Assembly (NCBI GenBank): GCA_946479855.1
Contig: CAMLHL010000003.1
Location: forward strand, 16,763-80,762
DNA from: an uncultured Pseudomonadota bacterium
GTDB taxonomy: Bacteria > Pseudomonadota > Gammaproteobacteria > Burkholderiales > Rhodocyclaceae
Direction of reading: 5' to 3'
Length of the DNA stretch: 64,000 nucleotides
Below, one piece after another: positions 4,548 to 62,445 of this stretch. Both the position numbers and the translations under genes were made by a program. The notes beneath the pieces are model-generated. The model saw nothing but the letters and a program-made list of their open reading frames with translations. It was not told the DNA's origin and did not search any database. The stretch's first letter is position 1. Each line of letters opens with the position of its first letter.

Positions 4548-6080
4548 TCAGGCGAACAGGCCGTGCAGAAACCAGCCTGCCGCGTTTCTGAAAACCCAGG
4601 CCCATTGCCCCTGCGGATTGCGGGCGACGAAATAGTCGCGCTGCACGTCACCGGCCGCCCCGTCTTCGCCTTCATCCCACCACCCGCTTTCCAGCCGTTC
4701 GGCCCGCGACAGCAGCTTGAGCGGGCCATGCCATTGCGGGCTGCCGGCCCGTTCGGCCAACGCCTGCGGCTCCGGCAGCAGCCATAGCGGACGGTACCGG
4801 CCAATGGCTCCAGCCGGCGAGAAAGCATTCCGCGAGGAAGCCGTCGTTGCGCCGAGTCCGTTCCGAGATCGCTTCGCCACGCTCACGGTATCAACGGCTG
4901 GCCCAGCGGTCGACGGCGAAAAACGGCCCAAACCAGAAGCTGCTTCCCGCGGCCGCGTGGCGCATTCCGGTCGATGGTCGGCAGCCTCGACCAGCGCCTG
5001 AACCATTCCCTCGCCCAACCGGGCGCGCAGGCGCTCCAGGCAGGCCGGCACCCCCTCGCCGGCGGCAGCCCGCGCGAACAAATGGGCGCTGGCACCGGGC
5101 GAAGCGACCAGTTCGTCGGCCTGCAGGCAGAGTGCTTCAACCGGGGCCCGCAGTTGCAGACGGCCGAGATGCTCGCGCAAGAGGCGCAGAAAACGCCCCT
5201 CGTCGGCTGCCGGCTCAGCGAAATTCAGGGCCAGCGCCGTCGGCGCAGCATCGTCATGGGTCAGTTGCAGGGTGCAGCGGCGCACCAGCAACTGCCGACC
5301 ATACAGCCAGCCGGCCAGCGCCGCGAACAGTCGCTGACCGGCGAAAAGCAGCGCCTCGGCATGCTCGACGCGGGCCGGCAACTCAATGTCCAAGGCAAAG
5401 CTTTCGGGAAAAACGAAAGTCTTTTGCGGATCAGCCAGCTCGCCCCAGGCTCGCGACAGATCCTCGACCGGCCCATTGCCGATGCGCCGCCGCAAGCCGG
5501 CACCAGGCATCTTGCACAGATCGCCAAGACGCCGCAAACCGAAGGATTCCAGACGGTTCACCACTTCGGCCGGCCACTCCGGGATGGAGCAAGGCAAGTC
5601 GGCAAGCGCTGCCCGCAAGCCAGCCATGTCGACATTGATGCCACGGTCAGCCTGCGCCAGCCAGGACGCTCCGAGCGGGGTCGGCGCGGCGGCCCAGCGG
5701 GCCGTGTAGGACTGTTCGGCACAACCAGCCAACACCGCGGCGATGATCGCCTGTGCTCCACCGAACAGGCGCAGGCAGCCGCCGATTTCAAGCAGCAGCG
5801 TAGCCGGCGGCTGCAGACTGATCGTCGGCGTGAAACGTCCGGCCCAGCAGGCCAGGCTGCCCAGCGCCTGCGATTCGCGCGCCGCATCGCGCTCGAAAAC
5901 GGTCAGCCCCGGCTGCAAACCCAGTGCCGTCGACAATTTCTGCCCGGGACCAACCCCAGCCTCTAGCGCCGACTCGTCGGCGACCAGCACCCGGCCGCGA
6001 GCGACGACGGCGCTAGGCGGCTGGCGCAGCGGCAAGGCCTCGATCGGCAGCAAGGGAAAGTGCAGGGCCAGCCACAGCAC
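4548..6080 (-). CDS. imuB: ImuB, Y-family polymerase-like mutasome protein
   Basis: DinB/UmuC-like protein that acts as the adaptor of the ImuA-ImuB-DnaE2 translesion system; the family lacks polymerase activity and bridges DnaE2 to the beta clamp. The N-terminus (VLWLALHFPLLPIEAL) and C-terminus (RDYFVARNPQGQWAWVFR) match the family. GTG at 6080 is preferred: GGGAGA lies eight bases before it and the family signature begins at once, while extension to 6203 gives an unrelated 41-residue leader. It overlaps imuA by 68 bases. A linker before RPLWLLPEP contains an unusual Ser/Ala/Arg-rich stretch (around 4810-4930) that includes a copy of the dispersed GTCGACCG element. Confidence 0.88.
   Translation of the reverse strand: MLWLALHFPLLPIEALPLRQPPSAVVARGRVLVADESALEAGVGPGQKLSTALGLQPGLTVFERDAARESQALGSLACWAGRFTPTISLQPPATLLLEIGGCLRLFGGAQAIIAAVLAGCAEQSYTARWAAAPTPLGASWLAQADRGINVDMAGLRAALADLPCSIPEWPAEVVNRLESFGLRRLGDLCKMPGAGLRRRIGNGPVEDLSRAWGELADPQKTFVFPESFALDIELPARVEHAEALLFAGQRLFAALAGWLYGRQLLVRRCTLQLTHDDAAPTALALNFAEPAADEGRFLRLLREHLGRLQLRAPVEALCLQADELVASPGASAHLFARAAAGEGVPACLERLRARLGEGMVQALVEAADHRPECATRPREAASGLGRFSPSTAGPAVDTVSVAKRSRNGLGATTASSRNAFSPAGAIGRYRPLWLLPEPQALAERAGSPQWHGPLKLLSRAERLESGWWDEGEDGAAGDVQRDYFVARNPQGQWAWVFRNAAGWFLHGLFA
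4903..4923 (-). repeat. Dispersed GTYGACCGYAGC element, degenerate copy in imuB
   Basis: Core GTCGACCGCTGG on the minus strand (two mismatches to the consensus) with a five-base T tract only four bases upstream. It lies in the low-similarity linker of ImuB. Confidence 0.45.
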
Positions 6081-6738
6081 GTGAAGTTCTCCCGGCAAAG
6101 GCAAGGGGACGAGGAACGGACAAGGCGAGCGGCCGGGAAACGGGCCGGCCGCGCCGTTTGACGATGCGTACCGACAAATCGTTGTCGCCGGCAGCCAGGG
6201 CAACGCGCAGCGGCGCCGGCGACGGTACCCGGAGTGCTACGGTCGACCGCCACAAACAGGCAAAAACTGGCCGCCCCTCGGCGGCGACCTGCAGCCGGCG
6301 CAAGGCCCGGGCATCGATACCGGCCTCCGGCCAGGCCAGCACACCGGCAAAGCCGCCGCAAGCCAGCAACTGTTCGACGCACCAGGCGACCTGCCGGCCG
6401 GCGCGGACGACGAGCAGCCGCTCCAGCGCCAATCCGGCCGCCGCCCAGGCCGGGGCATGCGGTTGCCAAGGCGGCGCCACCAGGGCCAGCCAACCGCCAG
6501 CCGCCGATAGTTGGGCCAGCGCCGGCAGCAGCAGGCTCATCTCGCCGACACCGCTACGGTCGACGAGAATTTCGGTCAGATTGCCGCGCGGCCAGCCTCC
6601 CCCCGGCAGTTCGGCATCAAGTTCGGCATAACCGCTCGGGATGGCACTTTCCGGCAACGCGGCCAGCGTGTCGCCGCGCCAGACATCGCCTCGGGCCAGC
6701 ACATCTGCCAGGGCGAGCGGCGACGGCATGGCGGTCAT
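6013..6738 (-). CDS. imuA: ImuA, RecA/SulA-like mutasome protein
   Basis: 241-residue member of the ImuA (SulA/RecA-like) family, the first partner of the ImuA-ImuB-DnaE2 mutagenesis complex. The sequence shows the expected start region (LARGDVWRGDTLAALPESAIPSG), GGGWPRGNLTEIL in place of a P-loop, and aromatic LVAPPWQPHAPAW. Its ATG overlaps the lexA stop as ATGA, so translation is probably coupled and the gene falls under the lexA SOS box. Two copies of the dispersed element lie inside the gene. The C-terminal third is rich in Arg, Ala and Pro and overlaps the start of imuB. Confidence 0.86.
   Translation of the reverse strand: MTAMPSPLALADVLARGDVWRGDTLAALPESAIPSGYAELDAELPGGGWPRGNLTEILVDRSGVGEMSLLLPALAQLSAAGGWLALVAPPWQPHAPAWAAAGLALERLLVVRAGRQVAWCVEQLLACGGFAGVLAWPEAGIDARALRRLQVAAEGRPVFACLWRSTVALRVPSPAPLRVALAAGDNDLSVRIVKRRGRPVSRPLALSVPRPLAFAGRTSRAVAGPALSLAADRGLAAAPAA
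6236..6266 (-). repeat. Dispersed GTYGACCGYAGC element in imuA
   Basis: Exact core GTCGACCGTAGC (6236-6247, minus strand). A five-base T tract lies 14 bases 5' of the core, at 6262-6266. Confidence 0.8.
6553..6564 (-). repeat. Dispersed element core in imuA, second copy
   Basis: Exact core GTCGACCGTAGC on the minus strand. Only a short AATT lies upstream, so this copy lacks the usual homopolymer tract and could be fortuitous. Confidence 0.5.
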
Positions 6739-61547: not shown

Positions 61548-62445
61548 AATCCGCGGCGTGCATAAACGCTACGGCGCGGTCGACGCCGTCAATGGTGTCG
61601 ACCTGACCGTCGGCGCCGGCGAACTGTTTGGCCTGATCGGCCATAACGGCGCCGGCAAGACGACGCTGTTCAAGATGATGCTCGGCCTCTTGCCGGCCAG
61701 CGCCGGGGAAATCCGCATCGGGGGCCAGGCGGTGCGCGGCGCCGCCTTCCGCGAAGTGCGCCGCAGCATCGGCTACCTGCCGGAGAGCCTGGCGCTCTAC
61801 GACAACCTGAGCGGCCTCGAGACCCTGCACTTTTTTGCCCGTCTGAAAGGGGTCGACCGTAGCACTTGCCCCGCCTTGCTTGAGCGGGTCGGGCTCGCCG
61901 GCGCCGCCGGCCAGCGCGTCCGCAACTACTCGAAGGGCATGCGCCAGCGCCTCGGTTTCGCCCAGGCGCTGCTTGGCTCGCCGCGCCTCTTGTTCCTCGA
62001 CGAGCCGACCAACGGCCTCGACCCGCAGGGCATCCTCGAGTTCTATCGCATCCTCGCCGAGTTACGACAAGGTGGCGTCACCGTTGTGCTGACCTCGCAC
62101 ATCCTGGCCGAAATCCAGCAACGGGTGGATCGCCTGGCCTTGATGCGCAATGGCCGCATCCAGGCGCTGGGTACGGTCCAGGCGCTGCGCCACGGGCAGG
62201 ACCTGCCGTTGACGCTGCGCGTCAGCTATCGTCCCGGCGATGAAAGCCTGCTGCGGCAGACGCTTGCCGCTCTGGGCATCGCCAAGGCCGAGACAAGCGC
62301 CGGTGTCGCCCGCTTCGCCTGCCCGCGGCAAGCAAAAATGGCGGTCCTGGCGGCGTTGACCGCAGCCGGGCCGACCATTCGCGATATCGACGTCCATGAA
62401 CCCTCCCTCGAAGATGTTTTCCTGGGTTACGCGGAGGAAGCGTGA
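61528..62445 (+). CDS. nosF: NosF, ABC transporter ATP-binding protein
   Basis: 305-residue ATPase. Walker A is GHNGAGKTT, the signature is YSKGMRQRLG, and Walker B is LLFLDEPTNGLDPQG. It powers the NosDFY complex that serves CuZ assembly. The frame starts with TTG at 61528, with GGAG upstream, overlapping the nosD end. Two copies of the dispersed element lie in the gene, at non-catalytic positions. Confidence 0.95.
   Translation: MTDKLIEIRGVHKRYGAVDAVNGVDLTVGAGELFGLIGHNGAGKTTLFKMMLGLLPASAGEIRIGGQAVRGAAFREVRRSIGYLPESLALYDNLSGLETLHFFARLKGVDRSTCPALLERVGLAGAAGQRVRNYSKGMRQRLGFAQALLGSPRLLFLDEPTNGLDPQGILEFYRILAELRQGGVTVVLTSHILAEIQQRVDRLALMRNGRIQALGTVQALRHGQDLPLTLRVSYRPGDESLLRQTLAALGIAKAETSAGVARFACPRQAKMAVLAALTAAGPTIRDIDVHEPSLEDVFLGYAEEA
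61831..61863 (+). repeat. Dispersed GTYGACCGYAGC element in nosF, copy 1
   Basis: Exact core GTCGACCGTAGC (61852-61863), with T6 15 bases upstream. Its spacer and flank resemble the imuA copy (GTAGCACT after the core). Confidence 0.8.
62334..62366 (+). repeat. Dispersed GTYGACCGYAGC element in nosF, copy 2
   Basis: Exact core GTTGACCGCAGC (62355-62366), with A5 16 bases upstream at 62334-62338. Confidence 0.72.

Follow-up and report, generated by a model that had tools for sequence, protein, structure and literature searches.

The closest described systems to the element reported here are the uptake signal sequences (USS) of the Pasteurellaceae and the DNA uptake sequences (DUS) of the Neisseriaceae. 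USS, and partly DUS, are reported to occur at a density near 1/kb, without orientation bias and in excess in non-coding DNA, and show a strong consensus, A/T segments, and subclade types (PMC1626085, PMC12616744). We analyzed a dispersed element in a 64-kb stretch of contig CAMLHL010000003.1 from an uncultured Rhodocyclaceae bacterium (hereafter the window), whose architecture an initial annotation had likened to these systems. The observation is confirmed and proved larger than the window alone showed, and the reading as an uptake sequence is the best supported one.

The Element in the Window

All 14 exact copies of the 12-base core GTYGACCGYAGC that had been reported were recovered, seven on the minus strand (6236, 6553, 13104, 13727, 17567, 20775, and 36618) and seven on the plus strand (24884, 25727, 30863, 41785, 43466, 61852, and 62355), whereas the mean over 100 dinucleotide-shuffled sequences was 0.05 and the maximum 1. 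Allowing up to one mismatch, the window holds 19 matches against 1.39 expected. Of the five degenerate copies initially listed, two (45353 and 58892) lack a properly placed A/T tract and probably arose by chance. The upstream A/T run of at least four bases was found at about −20 to −16 in 13 of the 14 exact copies, the copy at 6553 having its run at −8 instead. The 12-base core itself has to be divided: GTYGACCG is its genus-wide part, whereas the last four letters are a local dialect.

A strict pattern combining tract and core, WWWW-N15-GTYGACCG, with the reversed pattern as control, matches the window 20 times, ten times per strand (0.15 expected), and adds cores such as those at 2044 (+), 9369 (+)/9367 (−), 20197 (+), 27653 (+), 53803 (−), and 58843 (−). 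A matrix trained on a relative (G164; 21 bits of information), cut to −21 to +7 for scoring, finds 32 matches at 30 places; judged by the frequency in the element-free genome G162 (0.06/kb), about four of them may be fortuitous. An iterated window matrix and a G003 matrix (9952 matches) were dropped because they drifted into codon periodicity. The claimed intergenic excess is present but mild in the window, with 7 of the 32 matrix matches set against 12.4% intergenic DNA by our simple gene calls.

Distribution across Genomes

Five records were reached via the purL gene of the window at 91–94% identity (two Dechloromonas, one Azonexus, one Rhodocyclaceae, and one HGW-Betaproteobacteria-6). We searched 76 Dechloromonas/Azonexus genomes, many of them drafts or metagenome genomes, in which the closest purL is 95% identical (G205), so that the window's own species seemingly lies outside the genomes searched. 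The strict pattern occurs 391–1785 times in 40 of the 76 (hereafter carriers), compared with 5–31 occurrences of the reversed pattern. The carriers include the isolate Dechloromonas sp. H13, with 866 strict copies. The other 36 hold 9–159 copies (50–160 in 13, fewer than 50 in 23), and no genome falls in the gap between 159 and 391. In relatives, counts thus run into the hundreds or thousands compared with one- or two-digit numbers, far from the shuffled level with which the initial annotation had proposed to compare them.

Among 297 genomes sampled across the family, of which 12 belong to the genus, none outside the genus exceeds 27 strict copies (27 in G045), and the top count among 368 other genomes of the class is 55, against 20 for the control (G612). 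The element is confined to the Dechloromonas/Azonexus genus as far as sampled, noting that a variant with another spacing or core would escape the pattern. Several of the G045 copies lie within about 35 kb of one contig (G045:C6), perhaps DNA acquired from a carrier. The 8-mer TTGACCGC, counted over 369 class genomes, was a poor test, as G003 itself is unenriched (472 vs. 539 in the control). The same 8-mer is five-fold rich in G615, a 2.0-Mb class genome (431 vs. 84), which is perhaps a bearer of USS. Our literature search, which had most subscription journals outside its reach, uncovered no publication describing uptake sequences in Dechloromonas or elsewhere in its family.

Anatomy of the Unit and Its Dialects

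The full unit consists of an A/T tract (−20 to −15), a second tract (−9 to −4), the core GTYGACCG, and a species-specific tail, or dialect. The core occurs 187 times in 200 kb of carrier G164 and 45 times in an equal length of its relative G162, and the A/T fraction at −19 to −17 before it is 0.83–0.90 in the former versus 0.36–0.51 in the latter. Strict copies from G225 (65) and G206 (52) show A/T-high blocks at about −25 to −22, −20 to −15, and −9 to −4, separated by dips to 0.04–0.15 at −13/−12 and 0.05–0.15 at −3 to −1; it should be noted that columns −19 to −16 are fixed by selection with the strict pattern. The centers of the two main blocks lie about 11 bp apart and the nearer one about 10 bp from the core center; two A/T segments on one side of the core at helical spacing are a USS feature that the element shares. 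The outermost block, 6 bp past the distal one, is clear only in G206 and G225 among six stretches profiled, and there is little conservation outside about −25 to +15.

The commonest tail is YAGC in the window, CARC in G003 contig 6 (93 of 130), TGAA/TGGC/TGGA/TAAA in G159 (with T at +8 in 91%), TCAG/TCAA/TGAA in G168, CAGC, TGGC, and TAGC in G225, and TGGA/TGGG/TAGC in G206, whereas G164 has a loose CTGC/CCTG/CTAC set. The core Y is mostly C; it is T in 51 of the 65 G225 copies and 36 of the 52 G206 copies. Across eight sets there are 567 perfect cores and 162 with a single mismatch; the reversed control yields 107 single mismatches, which leaves a ratio of about 10:1 after control. Such a preponderance of perfect copies is a mark of uptake sequences.

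Symmetric copies of the form tract–CGGTCGACCG–tract, readable on both strands, were seen in the G164 stretch and in G003 contig 6; palindromic cores number 18 in G164 (of 161 places), 7 in G003 contig 6, 2 in G003 contig 1, and 2 in the window. A few symmetric copies are full intergenic palindromes and could double as terminators.

Density, Strands, and Genomic Islands

Matrix matches occur at 0.90/kb in G164, 0.44/kb in G003 contig 6, and 0.50/kb in the window, compared with 0.06/kb in the non-carrier G162; counted as places, these are 161 in G164 (200 kb), 224 in G003 contig 6, and 30 in the window, or up to about 0.8/kb. The strands are used equally, with splits of 91/88 in G164 (200 kb) and 121/110 in G003 contig 6 (520 kb). 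Most of the 179 G164 matches lie wholly in called genes (128), while 44 are intergenic and 7 straddle an edge. Density is higher between than in genes in G164 (1.56 vs. 0.74/kb) and G003 contig 6 (0.69 vs. 0.38/kb), an excess that G003 contig 1 does not show (0.43 vs. 0.46/kb).

Uptake sequences are sparse in recently acquired DNA, and the element agrees with this. In G003 contig 6, the largest interval free of the element (21 kb; 0.02 gaps of such length expected) encodes an MmeI-type protein and a phage-integrase-type protein that carries an arm DNA-binding domain. Its counterpart in the G164 stretch (11.7 kb; 0.005 expected) encodes a phage-integrase-family protein and two transposase-type proteins, and that in G003 contig 1 (15.6 kb; 0.04 expected) a polysaccharide biosynthesis protein among others, based on a scan of ten proteins, seven of them from these three gaps. 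The longest gap in the largest stretch of each of these two carriers is thus an integrase island, whereas that of G003 contig 1 is a polysaccharide cluster. Other long gaps, including a 12-kb minor-pilin/PilY1 operon, are within chance. Low-GC 5-kb windows hold 2.4–5.8 times fewer copies in three stretches (the 64-kb window has no low-GC window), and an Rfam search of two stretches returned one tRNA only, so that an 11.8-kb low-GC gap contains no rRNA operon.

Copies in purL and Their Evolution

In the window, purL holds plus-strand copies at 24863..24895 (exact 12-mer, antisense to the gene; orthologous site scored in 23 of 34 purL sequences), 25706..25738 (exact 12-mer; 24 of 34), 26333..26365 (6 of 34; tract from synonymous Leu codons), and 27632..27664 (14 of 34). 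All four were followed in the purL alignment, the second and fourth also matching the strict pattern and the third the matrix. The alignment comprises 34 sequences (the window, 30 genus-set loci, and 3 of the five relatives' records), and ten sites score as element in at least one genome, among them 2431 (in 24), 3286 (23), 493 and 935 (14 each), 368 (9), and 1804 (6). The mean number of scored sites is 3.73 in 22 carriers and 1.58 in a group of eight non-carriers, three weak genomes, and the window, a contrast that is understated because the window is counted in the latter group.

At site 1804 the tract CTTTTG replaces CTGCTC while encoding the same two leucines, and at site 368 the two tracts vary together with the core as one unit, and some amino acids differ as well, by our reading of the alignment. 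In tests on six sites picked from the ten, uncorrected for kinship, tract and core are associated at four: 493, 368, 2431, and, weakly, 1804 (the four p values being 9e-6, 0.035, 0.002, and 2e-7). At these four sites tract and core thus go together, once via synonymous codons, which is more than the mere codon conservation that the initial annotation had named as a refuting outcome.

The purL tree shows carriers and non-carriers mixed, with 10 changes compared with 9.4 for shuffled labels, at least 3 of them forced by well-supported branches. As carriers are also found close to the midpoint root, the simplest reading would be that the ancestor was a carrier and that the element was lost repeatedly, with repeated gain as the alternative.

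Interpretation as a Probable DNA Uptake Sequence

Taken together, the element is quite probably a DNA uptake sequence, that is, a self-recognition tag for natural transformation through type-IV-pilus import. Free DNA would be bound at GTYGACCG (CGGTCRAC on the complementary strand) by a receptor on the cell surface, for which a minor type IV pilin is the likeliest candidate. The A/T tracts, which are spaced by roughly one turn of the helix, may help the DNA to bend or kink so that pilus retraction could pull it in. ComEA and ComEC would then bring the DNA into the cell, where recombination would swap it for homologous DNA. Since copy-bearing DNA would enter more often, copy-bearing alleles would spread, and copies would accumulate in place across the core genome and decay where specificity is lost.

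Among the competence genes that the initial annotation had suggested looking for, those for ComEC, ComEA, and minor pilins are nearly genus-wide: ComEC matches occur in 71, ComEA above cut-off in 67, and a ComP_DUS-family pilin (PF16732) in 70 of the 76 genomes. Prepilin-motif matches number 11–19 in each of eight genomes. Pilin clusters from these eight genomes (four carriers and four non-carriers or weak genomes) were not discriminating, several pilins being cut short and single linkage having merged unrelated ones. No carrier-specific receptor pilin emerged among the ComP_DUS matches and these clusters, ComN/PpdA not having been searched for. By analogy only, the minor-pilin operon beside the S20 gene in G003, which holds a ComP_DUS match and a PilY1 gene, may serve as the first receptor candidate. 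The minor-pilin operon with an 1820-aa PilY1-family protein at G003:C6:261306-273377 is element-free over 12 kb, which is within chance. In two genus genomes the ComEC match is split by about 32–34 kb (G213:C1:2218607-2251879 and G192:C33:109525-144033), a pattern suggestive of a mobile element lodged within comEC.

Several observations weigh against an uptake sequence. ComEC, ComEA, and the ComP_DUS pilin do not part carriers from non-carriers among the 76 genomes; ComEC counted by hand as intact under our own criterion is present in 32 of 40 carriers versus 24 of 36 non-carriers (p = 0.20), and, as the pilin occurs in non-carriers too, no receptor is singled out. The literature search, with the reach given above, found no paper on competence in Dechloromonas/Azonexus. 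Single mismatches are less rare in G206 (32 vs. 20 in the control) than elsewhere. Some purL sites persist in non-carriers, tract and core are unassociated at sites 3286 and 935 (p = 0.31 and 1), and the choice of six sites and the missing kinship correction bear on the four positive tests. Separate inverted pairs, a published mark, were not confirmed: non-overlapping neighbors less than 200 bp apart over four stretches are inverted in 20 cases and parallel in 14 (10 vs. 8 in G164, 8 vs. 3 in G003 contig 6, 2 vs. 2 in contig 1, and 0 vs. 1 in the window), an apparent excess in G164 (30 vs. 5) arising largely because 18 palindromic cores are read on both strands.

Among the other explanations, a site for a chromosome-organizing or nucleoid protein spread over the chromosome, whether like FtsK-orienting polar sequences (KOPS) or MatP-, Noc-, or Chi-like, survives best and is nonetheless unlikely. 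It would account for many dispersed copies, for the A/T tracts, which favor bending, and for the palindromic CGGTCGACCG at 18 of 161 G164 places. However, the absence of strand bias over 520 kb and 200 kb argues against a KOPS- or Chi-like site, and the 41 chromosomal GTYGACCGYAGC of G164 are spread over all eight octants (3–8 each) and so mark no single domain. A housekeeping site would hardly be expected to have fewer than 50 strict copies in 23 sister species or to change its tail from one relative to the next, and so strong a consensus is atypical of ordinary protein sites, an argument taken from PMC1626085.

Still less probable is a family of transcription terminators or regulator sites, to which the roughly two-fold intergenic density in G164 and G003 contig 6 and the few full palindromes between genes would point. 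The excess does not extend to G003 contig 1, and the majority of copies stand singly within open reading frames (ORFs) on either strand; moreover, inverted repeats of USS and DUS are likewise credited with a secondary terminator role (PMC12616744).

We regard a mobile mini-repeat multiplied by copying (a repetitive extragenic palindrome [REP], miniature inverted-repeat transposable element, or insertion sequence [IS] end) as very improbable. The strong consensus and some palindromic copies would suit it, but low conservation beyond about −25 to +15, the mostly genic position of the copies (128 of 179 G164 matches wholly within called genes), and the purL copies, which occupy aligned codons without insertion, argue that these are not IS ends or REPs, an identity that the initial annotation had left open. 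A codon-usage or protein-motif artifact of GC-rich genomes (Val-Asp-Arg) can practically be dismissed: GTCGACCG is a plausible codon string and the core at purL site 3286 is kept in 28 of 34 genomes, but intergenic copies exist, an A/T tract is required 20 bp off, the similarly GC-rich sister G162 has zero strict copies in 200 kb, and no sampled family or class genome outside the genus reaches a comparable count.

If the uptake sequence is confirmed in the laboratory, a third bacterial group with uptake tags would be added, one of environmental organisms with GC-rich genomes. Carriers and non-carriers among close relatives, with several dialects, would open the question of why uptake sequences arise to comparison and experiment, as well as the role of the A/T tracts and the shift or loss of specificity. 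It would also help to predict gene-exchange partners in communities and offer a handle for genetics in Dechloromonas/Azonexus.

Further Copies along the Window

The strongest copy by matrix (26.3 bits) lies at 41764..41796 (+), has both A/T tracts and the exact 12-mer, and also matches the strict pattern, as does that at 2023..2055 (+; 25.9 bits) with core GTCGACCG at 2044 and tail CTGG. A weaker match at 4903..4935 (−; 18.4 bits; core 4907-4914) is intergenic by our gene calls. An exact 12-mer found by strict pattern and matrix at 6236..6268 (−) lies in the ORF 6013-6738, which has a weak RecA-like match below cut-off and which we take to be imuA; at 6553..6585 (−) the exact count and A/T profile show the 12-mer with its distal tract out of place and a proximal run at −8. 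In the region 614-6738, a DNA polymerase III alpha-type ORF, an impB/mucB-family ORF, and the weakly RecA-like ORF adjoin, with element copies inside, presumably an imuA-imuB-dnaE2 mutagenesis cassette.

Both strict pattern and matrix support the symmetric copy tract–CGGTCGACCG–tract at 9348..9395, with the element on both strands, the intergenic exact 12-mer at 13104..13136 (−), and the copy at 20176..20208 (+), which has both A/T tracts and tail CAAA and is intergenic by our gene calls. The same holds for the copy at 53799..53831 (−), at the end of a called ORF, and for that at 58839..58871 (−; tail TGGG) in a Fer4_5 ORF, presumably nosR. Exact 12-mers matching the strict pattern lie at 13727..13759 (−) in a TauE-family ORF, at 17567..17599 (−) in a GntR/aminotransferase ORF, at 20775..20807 (−), at 36618..36650 (−) in the ribonucleotide reductase small-chain ORF, and, with two A/T tracts, at 43445..43477 (+) in an exonuclease/GIY-YIG ORF; two more share an ABC-transporter ATPase ORF, which we assume to be nosF (61831..61863 and 62334..62366, both +). 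The large-chain ORF of ribonucleotide reductase carries a copy with tail CCGC at 40505..40537 (−), found by the one-mismatch count and strict pattern. Intergenic by our gene calls are also an exact 12-mer with two A/T runs at 30842..30874 (+; matrix, A/T profile) and a copy with tail TCGC at 31916..31948 (+; one-mismatch count, matrix), and a strict-pattern copy at 51858..51890 (+), with tail TGGC and palindromic CGGTCGACCG, is likewise intergenic.

Comparison with Known Uptake Sequences

The DUS resemble the element in having thousands of dispersed copies, several dialects (eight published), and a restriction to one family, according to PMC3630211. In contrast, the DUS is a continuous motif of the GCCGTCTGAA type; it has a CTG core but lacks A/T segments at its flanks, and the element is unrelated to it in sequence. 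Rho-independent terminators formed by paired USS or DUS have a parallel in the few element copies that form intergenic palindromes, a small minority only.

The likeness to the Pasteurellaceae USS seen in the initial annotation is apt, with a core and A/T tracts at helical spacing, dispersed on both strands. Shared with the Hin and Apl types of USS are a core flanked on one side only by two A/T-rich segments roughly at helical spacing, and, as published marks, a density near one per kb on both strands, an intergenic excess, a strong consensus, subclade types, and decay in some species. There are clear differences: the USS core AAGTGCGGT or ACAAGCGGT (ANNNGCGGT) is absent from the element, which keeps CGGTC in all sets examined, has no AAGT/ACAA head, often lacks the first G of GCGG, and continues its core through CRAC. 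Its tracts lie about 5–6 bp further from GCGG by our own reckoning on the numbering in PMC1626085, an extra outer A/T block occurs in G206/G225, the tail differs between species, and there are symmetric double-ended copies, whereas separate inverted pairs show no clear excess. Its hosts are GC-rich and betaproteobacterial.

On its complementary strand, the element reads (G)CGGTCRAC with the tracts after it. GCGG is reported as crucial for Haemophilus uptake in PMC7811141, and the two extended USS dialects printed in PMC12616744 share GCGGTCAA. All eight letters of GCGGTCAA are matched in GTTGACCGC copies and, among the other dialect strings tried, seven in those of G206, six in G003, G164, and part of the window, and five in G159 and the window's commonest form, whereas the proportion of random 12-mers of the same composition that reach such a match is 0.02% for eight letters, 1.3% for six, and 6.8% for five; as the comparison was made after the motif had been seen, it is a hint and not a test. 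It is conceivable, if rather doubtful, that the element and the Pasteurellaceae USS are not merely convergent and that (G)CGGTC with two bend-prone A/T tracts is read by one class of minor-pilin receptor. Sequence-specific uptake would then have a longer history than assumed, or would have moved more freely between Beta- and Gammaproteobacteria, and the genus would display all stages in the life of such a system, from founding through dialect drift to several losses.

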